A stretch of DNA of 64,000 bases. Source: Arabidopsis thaliana. Taxonomy: Eukaryota > Streptophyta > Magnoliopsida > Brassicales > Brassicaceae. The DNA is taken from NCBI RefSeq assembly GCF_000001735.4, contig NC_003071.7:7247151-7311150 (forward strand). Reading direction: 5' to 3'. The first letter of the stretch is position 1; each line of letters opens with the position of its first letter. Both the position numbers and the translations under genes were made by a program. This document shows positions 38,674-56,030 of this stretch, one piece after another. Under the pieces are notes generated by a model. That model did not search any database and was not told the DNA's origin. It was given only the letters and a program-made list of their open reading frames with translations.

Positions 38674-40038
38674 ATGGATAGGCTTTTGCAACCTCCTTCT
38701 TCTCACTCAATTGCTCCCTCCAAATTCCAATCAAGACCATCTCCCTTATTACTCCACCGTCTCCACTCAACGAATCTTAGTACTTTTCCCTCCTCTCGCC
38801 GTCTCGAGTCACGCCGAATCAGCTCCATTTCCTGCTTCTTCCGTCAGAATCCATCGCCGGATACATCTCCAGGATTGAATCAGAGTAGTAATTTCTTGAT
38901 TGCTTCTTCTCAAACCGATGCGTCGAAACCTAATCCAGGATTTATCCAACGGATCGTGAGCAGTTTTGAGCAACGCAAGGTAATTCACAACTATGAATCT
39001 TCTCCATTTACGTCTCTGTGTATTGGTTATATAGGTTATGGTTTCAGTTACTAGATTTGGTGTTTCTGGAGAAGAGCGTCAATGCTTATAGGTTTCAATT
39101 GTTTCAAGAAACCATTGGATTGATTACTAGAAGTTTAGGGTTTCGTGATCGAGTATTGTGTACTTTACCTTGAGATTGTTCACTGTTCTGTATCTGATGT
39201 GTGCAAATTTGTGTGTTTCTTGTAGACCATATCGGCAGGAATGGTTATATTAGTCTCTGCTATAGCTGCGCTTTTGCTTAATCCCATTCTTGTGCCGCCT
39301 GCTTTCGCTAGCTTTCAAACGGCTACTAATTCTGGTGGAGCTGCTGTGGTTGGTGGAAAACTCCTCAGGACTGAAGTATTGACAAGTGCTTGGACTGGTT
39401 TCTTTGCTGGTTGCTTACACACGTTATCTGGACCTGATCACCTTGCTGCTTTGGCTCCACTTTCGATTGGACGGACGAGAATGGAGAGTGCTGCGGTTGG
39501 AGCTCTTTGGGGATGTGGTCATGACGCTGGTCAGCTCATCTTTGGTTTATTGTTTCTGCTTCTAAAAGATAGGCTCCACATTGAAGTTATAAGAACTTGG
39601 GGTACAAGAGTTGTTGGTTTGACTCTCCTTGTGATTGGTGCTATGGGAATCAAAGAAGCTTCTGAGATGCCGGAACCATGTGTTGTTACTTTGGAGAATG
39701 GGGAAACAGATGAGAAAAGCTTAAAGAAGAAAAAGATAGGGTTTGCGACATTTGCGACTGGGATTGTTCATGGCCTGCAACCGGATGCTCTGATGATGGT
39801 ATTGCCTGCATTGGCTCTTCCTTCTCGGATAGCCGGTGCTTCGTTTCTCATCATGTTCTTGATTGGGACGGTGATTGCGATGGGAAGCTACACAGTTTTT
39901 ATTGGGTCGTGTAGCGAAGCGTTGAAAGAGAAAGTTCCTAGGATCACTGAGAAACTAACGTGGGCATCTTCTCTTGTGGCCATTGGACTTGGATTGGCAA
40001 TTATTGTCAGCCAGTTCTTTGGATTCAGCCTGTATTGA
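38674..40038 (+). CDS. plastid-targeted NicO/high-affinity nickel-transport family membrane protein
   Basis: Two exons, 38674-38979 and 39226-40038, give 372 residues. The first 100 residues or so are Ser/Arg/Pro-rich with few acids, a typical chloroplast transit peptide. Six or more hydrophobic segments follow: MVILVSAIAALLLNPILVPP, LIFGLLFLLL, VVGLTLLVIGAMG, a pair around MMVLPALALP...FLIMFLIGTVIAMG, and SSLVAIGLGLAIIVSQFF. His-rich family motifs are present: CLHTLSGPDHLAALAP, WGCGHDAGQ and VHGLQPDALM. In bacterial NicO/UreH proteins these line the metal path. Metal specificity in plastids cannot be told from sequence, and a role other than nickel transport is possible. From memory At2g16800. 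Confidence 0.9.
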
Positions 40039-40420
40039 AGAAAACATCGTCAAGTCTTTGTAGCTCTCTCTGTAGGATAAGATTTTTTGCATGTACCAAC
40101 AAAATTTGTATCTTTGCTTCAGAATCTTTTTCTTCAATCAAATACAAGTTTGAGTTTGGCTCCCCCAATCTTTTTACCGAACTAATGAATGTTATATATA
40201 AAGTATGTTTTGTCATGTTCCTCTCTTAAGGGTTGATTTGCTCGATGGAATGATTTTTGATAAAAGAATGGTTAAATCTTTGTAAAGTAATGCATCACAA
40301 TTATTGCATACAAAATCAATAAATTATTACCTAAATAATCCGAAAATTTTCGATGCAATCCACTAAAGAAACAAATTATTTGATAGCTAACTCTAATTAT
40401 ATCGCTTGATACCCAAGTTT
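40039..40420. other. convergent 3' ends
   Basis: Short spacer between the NicO-type gene and the F-box gene. Only 3' UTR-like AT-rich sequence. Confidence 0.5.
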
Positions 40421-41639
40421 TCAAGTTTCCAGATACATGATGCTCTCACTTGGATCCATAAGCTCCATGTCCATATATCTGGTCCTTACAGGGTTACTAA
40501 ACCAACGATCTGGTATTCCTTTGACCTCAACCTTTTTCAAATCATTGATTTGCAGGTCATAGTAGAGAAAGTAAAAGGGAGAAGAAAACAACTTCTTTGG
40601 TACCAAGATGACCTTGCCTTTTATAGATGTACCTTTTGCTGCCCATATATTATCAGTGACGTCTAAATGCATCTGAGAGGGCTGCAAAACAAAAGTCTTC
40701 CTCGACCATTCCTTCTTCTTGGCATCTTCCACAACCCACAAATCCATCTTACCATTCACTCGGAGATCGGTGAAATCAAGAACAGCTACATTCTCACCAT
40801 ACTCTATTAACTACACCCTTCTCTTGTCTAGGTAGTGTGTCTCCAGCATTGCGTGGTACTTGCATCGTATTGAACTCTTCAGACCTAACGTCGAAACTAA
40901 CAAGCATACAAGTATGTGGATCAGTCCAAGCCAAAAAATACAAAACTCCATTCATATTCAAATCAAGATGTGAAGGAACATGATGAGGAAACTCATTTGC
41001 AACCCTTTTCCACGAACCCCCTGCTTCTAGTACGAAAATCCAAAGCTCTGACTTTAAATTTTGCAAATCATTGTCTGATGCATAACTAACTGTGCAGAGT
41101 AGTTTGTACCGATCATTAACAGGGTCATGGCAGATAAAATAGAGGATGTTATAAGGAGGTCCTGCTATGATATCAGATTCTTTTATGGTAGGTAAGATCA
41201 CAAGTTGTCTAGTGGTGGGGTTATAGATACGCGCCTTTAAATTTCTAGTGAAAAAAATGAAGCCACGAAGAATCCGCAAGAAGAAACCTCCCATCTTACG
41301 GATGGTTAGATCTTGGTCGAATACAAAGGAATACGGAGACGTGCTTGGAGCAGATGATAAGATGAGAGACTTAGAGTAGTTGTATCGATCCAATAGGCAC
41401 ATGTAAAGACTAGGTTGAGGTTGAGATGGGACGATGAGAAAACGGTTGCAAAAATATCTGGAGGACAAGAGAGATGACCAAAACTTTGAGACACACTTGA
41501 ATCTCATCACTGACTTCGGAGGTAATCTCGTCAGAATCTCGATCAGTAGATCCTGAGGGATATATCTTGCGACCCAAGTTTTCGGATCTTGCTTCGCTCT
41601 TCGTCTACTTCTACTTCTTGTTCTCGACCTCCTCTTCAT
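40421..41639 (-). pseudogene. F-box and associated interaction (FBA) domain gene, frameshifted near its 3' end
   Basis: From ATG 41639 the product starts MKRRSRTRSRSRRRAK and has an F-box (YIPQDLLIEILTRLPPKSV, then MRFKCVSKFWSSLLSS), which docks ASK1/Skp1 in SCF ubiquitin ligases. An FBA-type beta-propeller-like region follows (IYNPTTRQLVILP...YFICHDPVNDRYKLLCTV). The frame stops at 40794 after 281 codons. A second frame, open from about 40811, reads LIEYGENVAVLDFTDLRVNG and continues the FBA domain to a stop at 40421. The total span is one base over a multiple of three, so one indel near 40794-40811 splits the gene. A truncated protein with F-box plus most of the FBA could still be made. From memory At2g16810. 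Its C-terminal part looks like normal coding sequence, so the break seems recent. Confidence 0.75.
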
Positions 41640-42069
41640 TCTCTCCTTTTGTACCGTGGCAAGGAGAAAGGAAAATCCCATTATGTGGCACAACAACAAT
41701 CTCCACTTTGGAAGCACCCACAAACTTTATATCCTTGTTTCAGATGTTGAGACAAGACAGAGTTAGTCGGCCTAGACTCACACGGACAAGAGCAGAGAAG
41801 TAGCAAATTAGGGTTTGAAGAGTGATGACGGTCACGAGTCTTCCATCATGTTGCTATGTATATAGATCAACCCGACCCAAATTGTGAACCTAAGTAACTT
41901 TCGGGTTATCGGGTTAGCTGGTTGATCTGGTTCAACTGCGGATTAATAAACAAATGAATTCTTTCTTTTTCTTTTGATAAATTTATATATCATATATATT
42001 TTTTTCGGTATGATCTTAGATTTCATAGAACCTAGAATTTCACTTTCTAGGTTTTATATGTAAGACAAA
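41640..42069. other. F-box gene 5' flank
   Basis: Leader and promoter between the F-box gene and the first MULE. No other feature is seen. Confidence 0.4.
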
Positions 42070-42117
42070 AGAAATTTTCACATAAGTGGATGAAAAAAAA
42101 TTGTTCTCATGGTTTGT

Positions 42118-42154
42118 CAAAGTGAGATATGGTTTTCACCGTTTGTCTTTTCAG
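42118..42154 (+). repeat. MULE copy 1 terminal inverted repeat, left
   Basis: About 37 bp, roughly 80% identical to the reverse complement of 44451-44487 by eye. Confidence 0.75.
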
Positions 42155-44450
42155 TTGTTTTCAGACCAAAATACTCTTAATGGGAGCAACCAAACCACAC
42201 AGCACTTGATTTCGGTTTAGTTTCTGTAGTTCAATTTTGAAAAAAAAAAAAAAAACTGAAACAAAGAAATCGAAGAAGAAGAAAAAGAGAAAGAGACGGA
42301 GAAATTCGAGAGAGAAGTAGAAAGAAGTTCAAAATTCATTATCCACTCCTTCATATTTCGACATCTCTCCATTGAACTCCAAAATTGAGGAACAAATTTC
42401 TTGTTTTCAGAGATGAACAAAATGCAAAAAAAAAAACTCATAGATTCAAACACTTTAGCTTTTTAAACTAAAGATAGTATAGGTTTACAAGATTTATTTA
42501 TAAATAGTAATCAAAACGTAAAAAAAATGAGATTTTGAGAAAACTGATAAAGACGGCCGCAAAATTAGGTTTGCAGAAAAGGATACACAGGTTGAAGATG
42601 ACTGGAAAATTATAATTATACCCTTCATCGAATTTTTTCTGTGTACGTATATTCAATTTACAGTGTACGTACACAAAATTATTTATTGGAACGTATATGT
42701 GACGATTTCTAATAACTCAAACTATTTTATTACGTATTCTTATATCTCAATAATCTCAATACATACATAATAATTAAATAAAAATAGATGGTGAAATAAT
42801 GTACGTACATTTTTGTTGGTAAATTAATGTATGTACATGTGTAATAATATACGTACATTTTTGTTTGTGAATTAAATTATTAAGAAAAATTTATTTATAC
42901 AATATTAAACCAATATTGGCAGTGGCTAAGATAAGACATTGTTTGTTGTATGATTATTCTGTTCTTAAAAACACTTCCCAATCTATAGTATACGTACAGT
43001 GGTACAAACCATGTTTACACATATTTCTTGGAGTCACAGCTGGTGTACGGTCACCCGAGTGAGAAATGTTATCTCCGTCAGGTACACGCTGACTTGTGGA
43101 CGTACACTCTGCCAACAGAGGACTGAATTCCCCTGGTGTGAGAATGACGTTCTCCTCAACATTCCCTATTCCATGTTCTTCTACAATTACATCGTTTCAC
43201 TTGTTGTAATCATAATCTTCGCCACTACTTTCACTACCATCAATAGTAGGATCGAAGGCACTTCTCCCCATAGATCCATCGTCACCCTGATAATCATCAT
43301 ACCCATCACCATCTTCGTTGTCCCCCTCCTCTTCATCCTCATCTGTTTTATCGTCTTCAACGTCGTCTTACTCATCTACGACCTCATTATTTTCATCAAC
43401 ATTTGAAACACGGTCACTTTCAGCATCGTCACCATGAGTCCTAAAGACATTATTCATGAGTGTCTTGACGATTGTAATGAAAGAGACAAACAAGTTGAGA
43501 GAAGGATACCTACCACGAATCATAAAGAACGTATTCAACCCCACTTGACTGTCATTGTAGACAGGAGGGCGTTTAGTATCTATCATTACTAACATCTCTC
43601 CCGGCATCCTGTAACTAATTATGGGATTGATCTCTGTGGACTTCAAACTGAAAGCCTCGCTTAGTGTACGTACAAATTCCGTGTACGTCATGTTTTCCTT
43701 AACACGTACACAACGACCAAACATGTCTTCCTTTAGTTTAAATTTCCATTCTTCTTCTTTGCATCTCCACTCACCGACCATAATAAATACGGGAATATCC
43801 ATTACCCAACAACATCATAAATTCAGGAGAACCCCAGTAAATGCAATTGAAAACATGATTATATCTACAAAAACAAATAGAATTTCGAGATACACACTTA
43901 TAAACATAATTATTTACACATTTATCATTTTCAACCAACAAAATTAAAAATAAAATATTTTTGGGTTTTTCTATAAAAAAGCAAAATTAATTTCGAACAC
44001 AATGAAGATCATAGTGTGTTATAACAAAAAAAATCTTTAAAACTTCATTACTTACACGATAATGCTTATCTTGGCTCCAAACTTCGTAAATAAACAAGAT
44101 CAACACTTCTTGAATATCAATGTTTGTTCGCAATTAATGTTTGTTCCTGGGTTCATCTTTAACTCAACAATTATTATCAATAATTTTATAATATTATAAC
44201 ATGTAATGATGATTTTGCATTAATTATAACAAGAGTCACGTCTAAACTTTTTGGGCCATTAAATGTTGATGTCATTTCGTTTTTAATGGAAAAAATCTCC
44301 CTTCTAACTGTACAGCCACACTCCTCAACGTGAAACAAAAATAATTCCAACTAAACCGGAACAGTGTACCTAACTAAATCTGACTAACTAAACCGTACAT
44401 TCAACAGTTTCTCAGCTGTAGCAGCAAGGGCAAAATGGTCAAATTTTAGC

Positions 44451-44487
44451 TGAAAAGACAAAACGTGAAAACCACCTTTCACTTTGC
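44451..44487 (-). repeat. MULE copy 1 terminal inverted repeat, right
   Basis: Partner of the left repeat. It is followed outward by the segment ccacaccctttgaccatg (in reverse complement), shared with the left end of copy 2. Confidence 0.75.
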
Positions 44488-44763
44488 CAATCCTTGAAAA
44501 TAAAACATGGTCAAAGGGTGTGGCACAATTATGTGAACAAACAAAAACATAATTGAAAGTAAATAAATTCTCTTAATTTTTCCAAATTGTTTTTAGAAAG
44601 AAATCAAATTAGTTTTGGGAAAAAATTATATTTAAGCAAAAAGTTTTAAGAAACAAGGGATATTATGAGATTTTAATCATCGGGAGTATAAAAGGAATCG
44701 TTATCGTCACAAAAACCCTTAAAATCCTAAAACTATGGCGCGTTTGTCTCTTTGAACAGAGAG

Positions 44764-45366
44764 GATGAAGTTGAGAAGAAGAAGACCTAGAGAAAGAGCC
44801 ATGCAAGCTGCAATAGAAAATAGGGTCGAACATATGGAAGAAGAAGAAGAAGAAGTAGAGGTTAATAAAAGAAAAAGTTTAAAAGAAAGCACGATTGGAA
44901 AAATTGTGTTGCACCAGAAATTCCTCAGGATCTCCTGATCGAGATTCTGACAAAATTACCTCCAAAATCAGTGTTGAAATTCAAGTGTGTCTCTAAGTTT
45001 TGGTCATCTCACTTGTCCTCCACATATTTTTGCAGCCGTTTCCTTAAGCTCTCATCTCAACCTCGTCTTTACATGTCTTTATTGGATACCAACTACTACT
45101 CCAAGTCTCGGCTCCTATCCGCCGCTCCAAGCTCGTTGTCTTTGGCTACCATAGTATTCGACCAAGATGTGACCATCCGTAGGATGGGTGGCTACGACCC
45201 ACGTTTTCTTCATGGCTTTATTTGCTTCATGTATGAGTTAAACGTGCGGATCTATAACCGTAGCACCAGACAACTTTATATCATACCTGCTATTAAAGAA
45301 TCTGTCATCAGAGCTGAGGATGGCGACCTTAATATCGATCCTTATACACCATCCAATATTATATAG
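44764..45366 (+). pseudogene. truncated F-box gene copy, head-to-head with the first F-box gene
   Basis: ATG at 44764 starts MKLRRRRPRERAMQAA and an acidic EEEEEEVEV stretch. The F-box (IPQDLLIEILTKLPPKSV, LKFKCVSKFWSSHLSS) is in another frame, which is open from about 44935 onward; the shift lies in the A-rich part before it. The FBA start (VFDQDVTIRRMGG, VRIYNRSTRQLYIIPAIKES) parallels the upstream gene. It breaks off at 45364-45366, where aquaporin sequence begins, so the C-terminal half is missing. From memory this corresponds to an annotated pseudogene near At2g16820. Confidence 0.75.
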
Positions 45367-48300
45367 GCCTTCATGATGACTCCATACAAACGTCTCGGAG
45401 GCGGAGCTAACACCGTAGCTGATGGACAGCACCGGAACAGCTCTTGGTGCTGAGATTATTGGCATATTTGTCTTGGTTTACACTGTCTTCTCTGCCTCTG
45501 ACCCCAAAAGAAGCGCGCGTGACTCTCACGTTCCGGTTAGTAAAACATTTCAAATGGTTTTGTGTAATATCTTTTATGTTGAAATCTTCTGAATGTTATT
45601 TCATTGTTTCCAAAATGGGGCCGAGTAATTTCTAACAAAATTGAATTCTTTTGAATATTTTTCAGGATGGATTTGTGTAACAAAGTTGATATGTTCAAAC
45701 AATCTATTTTTGGGTATATATATATATATATATGTAAAGGGTAATTTGCAGGCCACACCCTTTGACCATGTTTTATTTTCAGGGATTGGCAAAGTCTGAT
45801 GTGGTTTTCACGTTTTGTCTTTTCAGCTAAAATTTGACCATTTTACCCTTGCTGTTACAGTTGAGAAACTATTGAATGTACAGTTTAGTTAGTCAGATTT
45901 AGTTAGGTACACTGTTCCGGTTTAGTTGGAAATATTTTTGTTTCACTTTGAGGAGCGCGGCTGTACAGTTAGAAGGGAGATTTTTTTCTTTAAAAACTAA
46001 ATGACATCAACATTTAATGGCCCAAAAAGTTTCGACCTGACTCTTGTCACAATTAATGCAAAATCATCATTACATATTATAATATTATAAAATTATTGAT
46101 AATAATTGTTGAGTTAAAGATGAACCCAGAAACAAACATTAATTGGGAACGTACATTGATGTTGAAGATGTGTTGATCTTGTTTATTTACGAAGTTTGGG
46201 GCCAAGACAAGCATTATCGTGTAAGTAATGAAGTTTTAAAGATTTGTTTTGTTATAATACACTATGATCTTCATTGTGTTCGAAATCAATTTTGTTTTTT
46301 ATAGAAAAATCCAGAATTTATTTATTTCTAATTTTGTTGGTTAAAAATGGTAAATGTGTAGATATTTATGTTTATAAGTGTGTATATCGAAATTCTATTT
46401 GTTTTTGTCGATATAATCATGTTTTCAGTTGCATTTATTGGGTTTCTCCTAAATTTATGATGCAGTTGGGTAATGGATAATCTCGTATTTACTATGGTCG
46501 GTGAGTGGAGATGCAAAGAAAAAAAATGGAAATTTGAACCAGAGGAAGACATGTTTGGTCGCTGTGTACATGTTAAGGAAAACATGACGTACACGGAATT
46601 TGTATGTACACTAAGCGAGACTTTCAGTTTGAAGTCCATAGAGATCAATCTCATAATTAGTTAATGGATACCGGGAGAGATGTTAGTGATGATAGATACT
46701 AAACGCCCTCCTGTCTACATTGACAGTCAAGTGAGGGTGGGATACGATTTTTTTTATTCGTGGTGGGTATCCTTCTCTCAATTTGTTTGTCTCTTTCATT
46801 ACAACCGTCAAGACACTCGGGAATAATGTCTCTAGGACTCATGGTGACGATGCTGAAAGTGACCGTGTGTGTGATAGTGTTTTAAATGTTGATGAAAATA
46901 ATGAGGCCGTAGATTAGCAAGACGACATTGAAGACGATAAAACAGATGAGGATGAAGTTGGGGGGACAACGAAGATGGTGATGGGTATGATGATTATCAG
47001 TGTGACGATGGATCTATGGGGGAAGTACCATCGATCCTACTATTGATGGTAGTGAAAGTAGTGGCAAAGATATGATTACAAGAAGTGGAGCGATGAAATT
47101 GTAGAAGAATATGGAATAGGGAATGTTGAGGAGAACGTCATTCTCACACAGCTGACTGTTCAACATCCAAGGGAATTCAGTCTTCTGTTGGCAGAGTGTA
47201 CGTACACAAGTCAACGTGTACCTGGCGGAGATAACATTTCTCACCCGGGTGACCGTACACCAGCTGTGACTCCAAGAAGTATGTGTCAACATGGTTTGTA
47301 CCAATGTACGTACACTATAGATTGGAGAGTGTTTTTAAGAACAGAAAAGTCATACAACAAACAATGTCTTATCTCGCAATCAAACAATCTTTTTGCTACA
47401 AGCAACCTAGGTCATATCCTACAAGATTGGTGATGGTATGCGTTGATGATACTTGTCCATGACATTTGACTGCTCATGTCGTCAAGAATTCAGAATGTTT
47501 CAAAATCACATCGTATGAACGTCTTAGAATATATCTCACCCACTGCCAATATTGGTTTAATATTGTATCAATTAAATTTTCTTAATAATTTAATTTACAA
47601 ACAAAGATGTACGTATATTATTACACATGTACATACATTAATTTACCAACAAAAATATACGTACATTATTACACATATACGTACATAACTTTCAATATGA
47701 GGAACAAATATTATTTCACCATCTATTTCTATTTAATTATTTTGTATGTATGGAGATTATTGAGATATAAGAATACGTAATAAAATAGCTTGAGTTATTA
47801 GAAATCGTACCATATACGTTCGACTAAATAATTTTGTGTACGTACACTGTAAATTGAATATACGTACACAGAAGAAATTTAATAAAGTGTATAATTGTAA
47901 TTTTCCAGTCATCTTCAACCTGTGTATCCTTTTCTGCAAACCTAATTTTGCGGCCATCTTTACTAGTTTTCTCAAAATCTCATTTTTTATACGTTTTAAT
48001 TACTATTTATATATAAATCTTGTAAACCTAGAATATCTTTAGTTTAAAAAGCTAAATTGTTTGAATCTCTGAGATTTGTTTTTTCAATTTTTGTTCATCT
48101 CTGAAAACAAGAAATTTCTTCCTCAATTTTGGAGTTCAATGGAGAGGTGCGAAATATGAAGAAGTGGATAATGAAGTTTGAACTTCTTTCTACTTCTCTT
48201 TCAAATCTCTCCATCTCTTTCTCTTCCTCTTTTTCTTCTTCTTCGGTTTCTTCGTTTCAGTTTTTTTTTTTTTTAAAAACTGAACCATAGAAACTAAATC

Positions 48301-48815
48301 AAAACTAACTGCTGTGGGGTTTGGTTGATCCCATTAAGAATATTTTGGACCAAAAACCATTCAAAAGACAAACGGTGAAGACCACATCTCACTTTGCAAA
48401 ATCATGAGAGCAATTCTTTTTTCAGCCTGTGAAAATTTCTTTTTTATAAATGGGTTTGTAGTTTCGAATAAAGTTGAATTCTTCTGAATATTTTTCTTAG
48501 GTTTCACATGGGTTTTTGTAATTTTTAACTGACTGTAAATATTTTTGAATTTTGAATTTTTTTCAGCATGGGTTTGTGTAATTTCTAACAAAGTTGAATT
48601 CTATTGAATATTTCGAATACTTTTCCATATGTTTCCACATCGTTTAGTGTAATTTCTATAAAAGTTTAAAATCTTTTGATTAATATTTCAATTTTTTTAG
48701 GTTTTTGCTCCGTACGTTACCTATTGGGTTTGCTGTGTTCATGGTCCATTTGGCTACTATCCCCATAACTGGAACTGGAATTAATCCAGCTAAAAGCTTT
48801 GGTATTGCTGTTATA
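45367..48815 (+). pseudogene. aquaporin PIP2;8-like pseudogene interrupted by a MULE
   Basis: 45367-45535 matches the second half of PIP2;8 exon 2 ([19 protein letters not shown]...), with a small deletion after GATGG that breaks the frame. The GT donor at 45536 is kept. Intron-2-like repeats follow (aatttctaacaaa(a/g)ttgaattctt). MULE copy 2 then interrupts them, and they resume at about 48445. Exon 3-like sequence starts after the acceptor at 48700 and covers the second NPA region ([13 protein letters not shown]) to about 48815, with an extra few bases after GCTCCGTA. Exon 1, the first half of exon 2 and exon 4 are absent. It is a partial duplicate of the intact gene 9-10 kb downstream. Confidence 0.85.
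45740..48440 (+). mobile_element. Mutator-like element (MULE), copy 2, inserted in the aquaporin pseudogene intron
   Basis: Left end gggtaatttgcaggccacacc at about 45740. Right end near 48440 (reverse complement gaaattttcaca...gcaaagtgagatgtgg). Plus-strand coding remnants parallel copy 1: MVGEWRCKEKKWKF, GRCVHVKENMTYTEFV at 46473-46664, then acidic and PGDRTPAVTPRSMCQHGLY parts. The piece 47375-47537, missing from copy 1, reads as the MURA segment VDDTCP.HLTAHVVKNSECF in broken form. The catalytic core is absent. It lies in inverted orientation to copy 1 and is about 90% alike by eye over the 3' 400 bases. It sits next to a short TA microsatellite (45716-45733). Confidence 0.8.
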
Positions 48816-48949
48816 AAATAAAAGACTTTATTTGTACTAAAATAAAGAGACACAACCACATTTTGAACTATCTTTAAAATTATAGAAAGACTCAGACTAT
48901 TTTTATTTATGCTGATTTAAGCATACTAACATAAACTAGCTATCAATGC

Positions 48950-49370
48950 AAGAGAGATACAATCTGGTGAAGTTTCCTCGTTTGGCATGGGACCCTCGAC
49001 TGGCGAACCCTCCCCCGGTGTAGATTGTGGTGGTTCCACGGTTTCTTTCAATTCAGCTGGACTGTCAATCTGTCATTAATCTCTGGTGGTTGCTGAGACG
49101 ACTCGTCTCGAGCTTCTGCCGTCGTCTCCTGCGCCTTTTCCGCCAACACCGTCTCAAGAGTAGCTAACGCCGGTTTCAAAGGAGGAAGCTTTTCATCGGC
49201 GTAGTAAACCCTAAGCCCAATCTCACTTGCACAAGATTAAACAAACTCTTCTTCTCCTAAGGATAATATATCAAAGCCTCTTCTCCTTTACCAACAAACT
49301 GATCGGACACAAGTCGGATCCTACGGAGAAAATTGTTCTTCCGCGTGTGACCAAAGTTCTTGTCATGGTA
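48950..49370 (-). pseudogene. antisense fragment of an unrecognised gene
   Basis: GC content is clearly higher than in the flanks and the minus strand reads like decayed protein: LRRIRLVSDQFVGKGEEAL near 49300, then in another frame YADEKLPPLKPALATLETV near 49200 and PPEINDRLTVQLN near 49070. Frames change between pieces and no start or stop context fits an intact gene. I do not recognise the family. It lies exactly between the aquaporin pseudogene and the copia fossil, so it may be a gene fragment moved with the rearrangement. Confidence 0.45.
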
Positions 49371-49371
49371 T

Positions 49372-50480
49372 ATTGAATTAAGCTTGAAGTTAACTTAAGC
49401 CTCAAGTCTTTAAAGAGATTAGGACTAGTAACTTTAGCAGTTATCTAAAGTTATATTTAGGAGTTATCTAAATAAGCGTTCTAGTAGGATTAGGATTTCT
49501 TTATGAGAGACTCTTATATAAGGAGATGCTAAGTTGTAGCATAACTTATGAGGTTAAGAGTTTGAGAGATTAAGAGAGTTTAGGTTTTGAGAGGTTTTTC
49601 TAAGCTAATAAAAGAGAGGTTTTATTTGATCTTTGAGTTCTTAATCTTCTTTTAACTATATTTGGTTTCAGAGTCTTGTAGTGTGTTTGTGAGATCATAA
49701 GAAGGAACGTGAACAAAGAAGATGTCCGAACTTACCGTCACAACGGGAAGACCGAAAGAAGGAGGAGGATCCTCATCAATCCAGTGCTCATGCTTACCTC
49801 GATAAACTACACATGTTGGGCTATAAAGATGAAGATTGCACTCAAGGTACACAAGGCATGGGAGATCATTGAGACAGTTGAAACTGATAGCGAGAAGAAT
49901 GAAATAGCTATGCACTTGCTTTTCCAATCAATACCCGAGGCGCTGGTCGTAAAAATTGGAGAGCTATATATGAGTTATGACAAAGAAGGTTTGGGAAGCA
50001 ATAAAAGCAAAGCATGTAGGAGCAAACAAAGTAAAAGAAGCGAGACTACAAAGCTTAATCATTAAGAATTCGATCGCCTCAAGATGAAAAACTCCGAGAC
50101 TATTGATGCCTTCTCAGAAAAACTCTCTGAGATAACGTCGAAGTCAGCTGCATTGGGGGGAAATATCAAAACTTATCAAGACGTTTCTGAAAAGCCTCCC
50201 GCGTAAAAGATATATCCACATCGTGGCATCTCTCGAGCAAATTTTAGATCTTAAAACCACAAGTTTTGAAGACATCGTCGGACGTCTTAAAGTTTATGAA
50301 GAACGTGTATGCGATAAAGAAGAAACTCAAGACAACCAAAAACAAACTAAGGTACACTAATACGAAAACAAATTATGGAAACCGGGACTACCATGGAGAT
50401 TTTTAAAACAGAGGACGCGGTGATGGGAAACGTTGCTATATTATTTGCAAACGATGTGAGATGGAAGATGAAACAATTAA
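49372..50480 (+). mobile_element. fossil Ty1/copia LTR-retrotransposon, 5' part only
   Basis: A probable 5' LTR (about 49372-49660) is followed by a primer-binding-site-like motif resembling tggtatcagagc (near 49662) and a copia-type gag region from about 49720. The element is broken, with several disruptions. No pol region or 3' LTR is seen in the window. It is an old copy. Confidence 0.6.
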
Positions 50481-50539
50481 ACGATTAATGTGGGAAGAAC
50501 CTCAATTGGAACCGATTGAACTTAGCACTACTACGGAAG

Positions 50540-54496: not shown

Positions 54497-56030
54497 ATGT
54501 CAAAAGAAGTGAGTGAAGAAGGAAGACATGGCAAAGACTACGTGGATCCACCTCCAGCTCCACTTCTAGACATGGCTGAGCTTAAGCTCTGGTCTTTTTA
54601 CAGAGCTATCATCGCAGAGTTCATCGCCACTCTCCTCTTCCTCTATGTAACCGTAGCTACAGTCATTGGCCACAAGAACCAAACCGGTCCTTGTGGCGGT
54701 GTTGGTTTACTCGGCATTGCGTGGGCCTTTGGTGGCATGATCTTTGTCCTCGTCTATTGCACCGCCGGTATCTCCGGTAAATATTTCCACAAAAACCACA
54801 AAAATTTCCATAAACTTCAGTTTCAAGATCTTAATATGAAGTTGTTTAGCAATGATACATTTATAATTCAAAGATACATTTTTAGCAAGTTTTTGTTTGG
54901 TAAAATACCTTTTTAGCAAGTTGGTAAAATATTTCAACAAAACTTTATCCTAAAATTACTAAACCTTAATCTTCAACAACTTAATATGGAGTTGTTAACT
55001 TGCAGGAGGTCACATTAACCCAGCTGTGACATTTGGTCTGTTCTTGGCTCGTAAAGTGTCGCTCCCTAGAGCAGTTGCTTACATGGTGGCTCAGTGTCTT
55101 GGAGCCATTTGTGGAGTTGGACTCGTTAAGGCCTTTATGATGACTCCATATAAACGTCTCGGAGGCGGAGCTAACACCGTAGCTGATGGTTATAGCACCG
55201 GAACTGCTCTTGGTGCTGAGATTATTGGCACATTTGTCTTGGTTTACACTGTCTTCTCCGCCACTGACCCCAAAAGAAGTGCCCGTGACTCTCACGTCCC
55301 GGTTAGTAAAACTTTGCAAACCAGTTTTGTATAATTTATAATTATTCTAAAGCTGAATTTTTTACTGTTCTTTCATGGTTTCAAAATGTGATTGTGTAAT
55401 TTCTAAAAATAGTTATTCTTTTCTAAATTTTTCATAGATTTCATGATGGGTTTTTCTTTACTGTTTTTTCATGATTGAAATTTTTGAACATATTTCTAGG
55501 TATTTAGGTTTGTGTAGTTAATAAACTTGAATTTTTCTGAATATTTATCGTAGGGTTTGACATGGATTTTTGTAATTTTTAACAAGTTGAATTCTTTTGA
55601 ATTTTTTTTCTTATGATTTCACATGGGTTTGTTTAATTTCTGAAAAAGTCTTTTGAATATTTTTATTTTTATAGGTTTTGGCTCCGTTACCTATAGGGTT
55701 TGCTGTGTTCATGGTGCATTTGGCTACTATCCCCATAACTGGAACTGGGATTAATCCAGCCAGAAGCTTTGGTGCTGCTGTTATCTACAACAATGAGAAA
55801 GCTTGGGACGACCATGTAAATATAGTTCTCTCTCATTAACAATCAATTTACTTATTTTTTTGTTGAATAATTACTAATTAAGTTTTGGGTTAATGGATTT
55901 GAATTTTTAGTGGATCTTTTGGGTTGGACCATTCGTGGGAGCATTAGCAGCAGCAGCATACCATCAATATATCTTGAGAGCTGCAGCAATCAAAGCTTTG
56001 GCTTCATTCCGCAGCAACCCAACCAATTGA
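54497..56030 (+). CDS. PIP2;8: plasma-membrane aquaporin PIP2;8
   Basis: Four exons, 54497-54776, 55006-55301, 55675-55815 and 55911-56030, give 278 residues. The six-helix MIP fold is complete with both NPA loops ([11 protein letters not shown] and [13 protein letters not shown]). The short N-terminus begins [20 protein letters not shown], typical of PIP2 proteins; the DYVDPPP region marks the PIP trafficking end, and the C-terminus ends [11 protein letters not shown] with a phosphorylatable Ser (FRS). It conducts water across the plasma membrane. The exon layout is the PIP norm. Intron 2 is made of degenerate tandem repeats also found in the pseudogene copy at 45.4-48.8 kb. From memory At2g16850. 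Confidence 0.97.

Follow-up and report, generated by a model that had tools for sequence, protein, structure and literature searches.

An inverted pair of non-autonomous Mutator-like elements in Arabidopsis thaliana: separate ancestry of two arms with hairpin potential

Several described systems bear on inverted pairs of transposons in plants. The maize locus Mu killer is derived from MuDR itself; its TIRA ends lie outside, and mudrA pieces of ~1.3 kb meet in the middle of the locus (PMC3440606, PMC8224964). Read-through from a flanking gene has been proposed for Mu killer (PMC3440606, PMC8224964), short antisense transcripts start inside it, and the read-through hairpin is disputed (PMC3440606). 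In Arabidopsis thaliana, the inverted repeats IR71 and IR2039 are rich in 21-nt small RNAs and highly methylated (PMC5910406). KI (Kaonashi) elements, a group of Mutator-like elements (MULEs) with an Ulp1/C48 gene (PMC6117577, PMC13317346), have been termed non-TIR, after the terminal inverted repeat (TIR) (PMC13317346). Here we analyze a locus in a window of 64,000 nucleotides of A. thaliana DNA (NC_003071.7, positions 7,247,151 to 7,311,150; positions below are those of the window), in which two MULEs stand in opposite orientation around a spacer that holds gene fragments. An earlier note on this DNA had likened the pair to Mu killer, whose hairpin silences active MuDR copies. We describe the structure of the pair, the family to which it belongs and the separate ancestry of its two arms. 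We consider it highly probable that the locus is an ordinary silenced pair, made by two independent insertions of non-autonomous MULEs that came to lie in opposite orientation by chance, and covered by local heterochromatin formed in cis.

The two copies are inverted and collinear (Table 1). A repeat search of positions 40000-50500 returned 22 inverted pairs, the longest of which are collinear pieces of the two arms, and self-BLAST aligned 42067-44524 with 45752-48443 at 91% identity over 1627 columns and 88% over 817 columns. The element ends in Table 1 were set by comparison with the ends of other family copies. The earlier note had recognized two opposed Mutator-like copies of high identity, about 90% by eye in the last 400 bases, and had called for the arms to be aligned. 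Global alignment bears this out, giving 92.24% identity over 2447 aligned columns; by 200-column bin the identity is 91.5-94.5%, with 84% in the outermost bin. The 190 mismatches include 113 transitions, and 53 or 60 of them, according to the strand transcribed, would give G-U wobble pairs in RNA. In 34 places the arms agree perfectly over 21 nt or more, the longest such run being 58 nt, and 446 21-mers are common to both. The largest indel between them is real: ~157-160 bp are absent from the left arm.

When positions 42067-48443 were folded as RNA (plus strand only), 2310 of the 2458 left-arm bases paired with the right arm, at a minimum free energy of -3888.5. Reversal of the right arm, as a control, left 7 of the 2458 so paired (-1500.7). 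Given this difference, any RNA spanning both arms would be predicted to form a very stable long hairpin, and to this extent the proposal that a hairpin is possible was sound.

In both elements the 5' (transposase-start) end points to the loop, and the transposase reads outward. Besides the remnants listed in Table 1, tblastn placed a second piece of transposase (aa 383-398) at 42934-42981 in the left arm. The right arm also keeps part of the transposase DNA-binding region, and its remnant gives a sub-threshold match to PF03108 (E 0.027) and no MULE domain. The catalytic core (the MULE domain, aa 579-671 of a coding relative, L059, described below) had no tblastn match in positions 40000-50000, and neither had the C48 protease of that relative. 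Both copies have thus kept the N-terminal transposase region and lost the core, just as had been noted from the letters alone. Judged by sequence, the arms can be classed as non-autonomous MULEs, with both ends homologous to those of a coding MULE and the core deleted. The left copy has short degenerate inverted ends (81% over 54 nt), a weak TIR. At 44524-44556, its 5' end resembles by eye its own 3' end (TTCACATAA...) instead of the sequence expected there, and a short inverted repeat lies just past this atypical terminus, which is possibly an end exchange or a repair scar.

We asked how the two arms relate to other copies in the genome. Both a 451-nt piece of the right arm and a 435-nt piece of the left one have 38 genome matches; in a search with the whole right arm the best 40 of 98 candidates were scored, and the family counts are lower bounds. 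Seventeen of the 38 matches, the two arms included, are siblings of ~2.3-3.2 kb with matching ends, spread over contigs C1 to C5; the remaining 21 are longer or fragmentary copies. A perfect 9-bp target-site duplication (TSD) adjoins the 5' start in nine of the 17 siblings, displaced by a few bases at the 3' side in one of them (L054). By tblastn, none of the 17 matched the core or C48. The core-less state is therefore a trait of the family and not specific to the pair.

Among four longer relatives compared, the MULE domain was found within an open transposase frame in L059 only. This frame of 994 aa contains MULE (PF10551) and SWIM domains and a sub-threshold PF03108 match, and a C48 protease frame lies on the opposite strand (PF02902, E 3e-72). 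L060 has kept the C48 frame and has a shorter transposase frame, which matches only to aa 504. L036 and L038 give core matches with frame breaks, and both loci end at ~4.4 kb as analyzed. The 5' part of the arms is ~80% identical to L059 and their 3' end ~76% identical to L061; in the L059 element, a distal end homologous to the sibling 3' ends lies ~10.9 kb from the 5' end. Since L059 combines MULE, SWIM and C48 with both matching ends, the siblings are best read as internal-deletion derivatives of MULEs with an Ulp1-type gene, probably Kaonashi-like. L036, which has the most shared 21-mers among the longer relatives, perhaps has its 3' end 27.7 kb away, at the locus listed as L058 (C3:13544074, C3:13571836), a layout that suggests nested insertions in one old element.

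The ancestry of the arms was read from a tree of the 17 siblings, with fragments (L056-L058) and longer copies left out. The ~157-bp deletion of the left arm occurs in eight of the 17 copies, namely L048-L055, among which L049 is the left arm; the other nine lack it. The eight deletion-bearing copies form one clade (support 100/99 to 100/100), and the right arm falls within a different clade of five members (100/100). Pairwise identity is 96-97% between the right arm and its four clade mates and 92% between the two arms, and the copy nearest to the left arm stands at 96%. A tree that joins the arms as sisters, a constraint tested after the tree had been seen, was rejected by 356 log-likelihood units (p-AU 2e-9 in the approximately unbiased (AU) test). 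Because the deletion is clade-wide in one arm and the arms-as-sisters tree is rejected, the pair appears to consist of two independent insertions of different sub-families and not of an inverted duplication. The terminal branches of the arms are 0.019-0.020 long. If mutations arise at ~7e-9 per site per generation, each insertion is at most about 2.8 million years old, or younger if methylation speeds mutation.

The spacer and the flanks hold parts of two neighboring genes. As the earlier note had it, F-box and aquaporin pieces lie in the loop, where Pfam matches, MIP for the aquaporin, locate both; half of the aquaporin piece, however, lies outside, to the right of the right arm. The best match of the F-box fragment elsewhere is the adjacent F-box gene, in inverted orientation (76%); for the aquaporin piece, it is the aquaporin gene on the right (84%). 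By sequence comparison, both seem to be local duplicates. When the flanks are joined, the two aquaporin parts align as one stretch to the gene on the right, at 76% over 561 columns, and the right element thus sits in an intron of a pseudogene derived from it; the aquaporin duplicate is older than the right insertion. The intact aquaporin gene at ~55 kb we take to be PIP2;8, the name used in the earlier note, which fits. The introns of the pseudogene and of the intact gene hold several diverged repeats of ~50-60 nt (45597-45697, 48430-48669 and ~55400-55660). The adjacent F-box gene and its truncated inverted duplicate stand head to head with the left MULE between their 5' ends, and this element likely also lies within the promoter region of the adjacent gene. 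Gene capture of the Pack-MULE kind was considered and rejected: the F-box and aquaporin pieces lie outside the element ends, their best matches are the flanking genes, and the right element splits the aquaporin piece in two. Further right, an open frame at 49682-50065 presumably resembles a fragment of a retrotransposon gag gene.

Table 1 Features of the inverted pair and its surroundings (window positions)
Feature	Positions	Strand	Remarks
Adjacent F-box gene, open frame	40794..41726	-	5' limit ~340 bp from left MULE
Left non-autonomous Mutator-like element	42069..44524	-	AT2G16820 by gene order; ~157-bp-deletion sub-family
Left N-terminal transposase remnant	43071..43814	-	tblastn; aa 1-258 of L059's 994, 2 stops
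Spacer (potential hairpin loop), 1.2 kb	44525..45738	.	AT2G16830 by gene order
F-box gene fragment	44869..45366	+	Pfam (E 1e-8) and genome search
Aquaporin (PIP2;8-like) pseudogene, left part	45365..45741	+	MIP match (E 1.5e-6); 84% to 55129-55434
Right non-autonomous Mutator-like element	45739..48441	+	AT2G16832 by gene order; undeleted sub-family
Right N-terminal transposase remnant	46461..47516	+	aa 1-258 and 385-447; several stops, frame breaks
Aquaporin (PIP2;8-like) pseudogene, right part	48449..48814	+	right of right arm

A search of the open-access literature by gene identifiers returned one paper on the locus (PMC4056368). Table 1 of that study, by Dong et al. 2012, gives AT2G16820, AT2G16830 and AT2G16832 in this order with the family 'Mutator-like', and lists the Mutator-like elements flanking AT2G16830 as polymorphic between the accessions Col and Ler (PMC4056368). 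AT2G16830 is a Ler-specific target of H3K27me3, the mark being missing in Col, and belongs to the Rep_Col group, whose genes are unexpressed in almost all Col samples (PMC4056368). Genes of this class frequently carry H3K9me2 in Col, and 24-nt small interfering RNA (siRNA) is elevated in the sequence flanking them; in F1 hybrids the mark remained allele-specific and heterochromatin was not seen to invade in trans, and insertion of a transposable element (TE) alone did not predict heterochromatic invasion (PMC4056368). As reported in the portions of the paper drawn on here, this chromatin pattern favors cis spreading from the two elements. Neither those portions nor the open-access literature, represented mostly by titles and abstracts, yielded a description of the inverted orientation of the pair.

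These findings can be brought together as follows. Two internally deleted MULEs of one dispersed A. thaliana family would have inserted independently, opposite to one another by chance, the left one landing between two divergent F-box duplicates and the right one in an intron of the PIP2;8-derived pseudogene. As presumably ordinary targets of RNA-directed DNA methylation (RdDM) and heterochromatin, the elements would seed H3K9me2 and DNA methylation in cis across the trapped remnant of F-box and aquaporin sequence, and this cis heterochromatin would take the place of the Polycomb state found on the remnant in Ler. The potential to form a hairpin would then be a by-product of the opposite orientation, neither selected nor the mark of a Mu-killer-like silencer.

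Several points weigh against this account of two insertions silenced in cis. The left element lacks the canonical 5' terminus GGGTAATTTGC, and no TSD was found for it; the TSD of the right element is imperfect, matching at 6 of 9 positions where it is expected, next to a (TA)n run, or 7 of 9 if shifted. With an imperfect TSD on the right and none found on the left, the insertion events are not cleanly documented, and the poor TSDs and the missing left terminus also tell against clean dating. Chance would be expected to give ~0.005 inverted pairs within 4 kb for 17 randomly placed copies of such a family. Many transposon families exist, so this figure covers one of many, and insertion is not random, which tempers it as well. 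The link to the published locus is also indirect: the gene names were tied to the window by gene order and family and not by printed coordinates, and the polymorphism at AT2G16830 rests on a draft-genome alignment, the PCR column reading NA (PMC4056368). Finally, the statements on H3K9me2, siRNA and F1 hybrids are taken here at the level of the gene class and would apply to AT2G16830 as a member of it.

Foremost among the alternatives is an siRNA locus of the IR71/IR2039 type, in which read-through transcription would give a long hairpin that is then diced. Such loci exist in A. thaliana (PMC5910406), the arms fold almost completely where the reversed control does not, and, beyond the 21-mers and perfect runs that the arms share, each of the 15 other siblings has 560-1622 positions with a perfect 21-mer match. 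The locus might in this way add 21-24-nt siRNAs against the siblings, with no dedicated role. The direction of the elements argues otherwise. Because the transposase starts face the loop, promoters in the element 5' ends would read outward and not across both arms. For a hairpin, transcription would have to start outside the pair or in the outer 3' ends, for example divergently from the F-box promoter ~340 bp to the left of the left arm, or inward from an outer 3' end. The trapped gene, moreover, falls in the group that is unexpressed in almost all Col samples (PMC4056368), and on balance we think this explanation unlikely. We give a slim chance to a more specific form of it, in which transcripts that read through from the F-box side, or that run inward from an outer 3' end, fold into a ~2.4-kb hairpin, and siRNAs from it strengthen the silencing of the ~17-copy non-autonomous family in trans, only in accessions with both insertions. 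If this were true, Col and Ler would be expected to differ in family-wide methylation, and the pair would be a natural source of small RNAs built by chance.

Very little now speaks for the trans-silencer suggested in the earlier note, a Mu-killer-like locus whose hairpin would start and maintain the silencing of active relatives that code for transposase elsewhere in the genome. As in Mu killer, partial transposase genes with element ends stand in inverted orientation, and the best point for a trans effect is that, with at most 2 mismatches, 18% (L059) to 25% (L036) of the 21-nt positions in the 5' region of the relatives match an arm. Perfect 21-mer positions common to the arms and these relatives number just 12 in L059, 26 in L060, 29 in L038 and 84 in L036, and the best identity to a non-sibling in the tested segments is 86% over at least about 390 nt, or 87% in one piece of less than 190 nt; a closer coding copy may exist in another accession. 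Since the siblings have so many more perfect positions, a hairpin would be predicted to address mainly these non-autonomous copies. The transposase starts face the loop, opposite to Mu killer with its TIRA ends outside, and the arms trace to two insertions. The relatives are dispersed over about 20 places in the genome, with a MULE-domain open frame in L059 only, and the absence of the core in both arms, being a family trait, also tells against a dedicated silencer. Ancestry, orientation and target match together have lowered this reading to something we regard as highly improbable.

The earlier note had further supposed that small RNAs from the loop might touch the F-box family and PIP2;8. 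The first part found no support in the adjacent F-box region (40000-42066), with which the loop has no 21-mer in common. The second part stands in a reduced form: PIP2;8, which is At2g16850 (PMC11174488), has 30 21-mer positions in common with the loop, starting at 55152-55238, and would be a formal but small target. We set aside silencing of either gene by loop siRNAs on these counts, and likewise the loop as a source of double-stranded RNA (dsRNA), as it would stay unpaired in the hairpin model except for structure of its own.

A single event is next to impossible in our estimation: the unit is symmetrical and its arms are 92% identical, but a local inverted duplication of one MULE is ruled out by the AU test and by the separate clades of the arms, with a clade-wide deletion in one only, and transposition of a composite of two MULEs and their spacer is opposed by outer flanks without a TSD (3/9) and by a genome search that found no second near-identical copy of the F-box part (44700-45364; next best 76%) or the aquaporin part (45365-45660; 84%).

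With two independent insertions as the preferred reading, the locus makes a case against taking inverted transposon pairs for evolved silencers, and much of the question is answered, ahead of small-RNA work, by the phylogeny of the family and by the direction in which its copies lie. If the pair did make hairpin siRNAs, two separate insertions could by chance build a Mu-killer-like trigger. A. thaliana offers well-studied silencing mutants for such a case and also, should the reported polymorphism be borne out, a natural contrast of presence and absence. Silencing in cis by the two elements would also offer a mechanistic reading for one entry among the published loci that switch from Polycomb to heterochromatin (PMC4056368).

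Set beside the described systems, the pair shares features with each. Among the loci at which Dong et al. 2012 linked polymorphic TEs to a change of genes from H3K27me3 to H3K9me2 in Col, it is one row of Table 1 (PMC4056368). Its family resembles KI MULEs in that L059 has a MULE transposase and C48, and L060 a C48 frame (PMC6117577, PMC13317346), and in the 9-bp TSDs of the siblings; both arms differ from them in having neither the protease gene nor the catalytic core, and the left copy shows short degenerate inverted ends where KI elements are non-TIR (PMC13317346). Like IR71 and IR2039, to which we liken it by description and not by sequence, it is a long inverted repeat of A. thaliana able to form dsRNA; here, in contrast, the arms are 8% divergent and differ by an indel of ~160 bp. 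With Mu killer it shares inverted partial transposase genes with terminal repeats, from which a hairpin is possible in principle (PMC3440606, PMC8224964). It differs from Mu killer in being built from two sub-families, with the 5' ends inside, a 1.2-kb spacer between them and a poor perfect match to its longer relatives.

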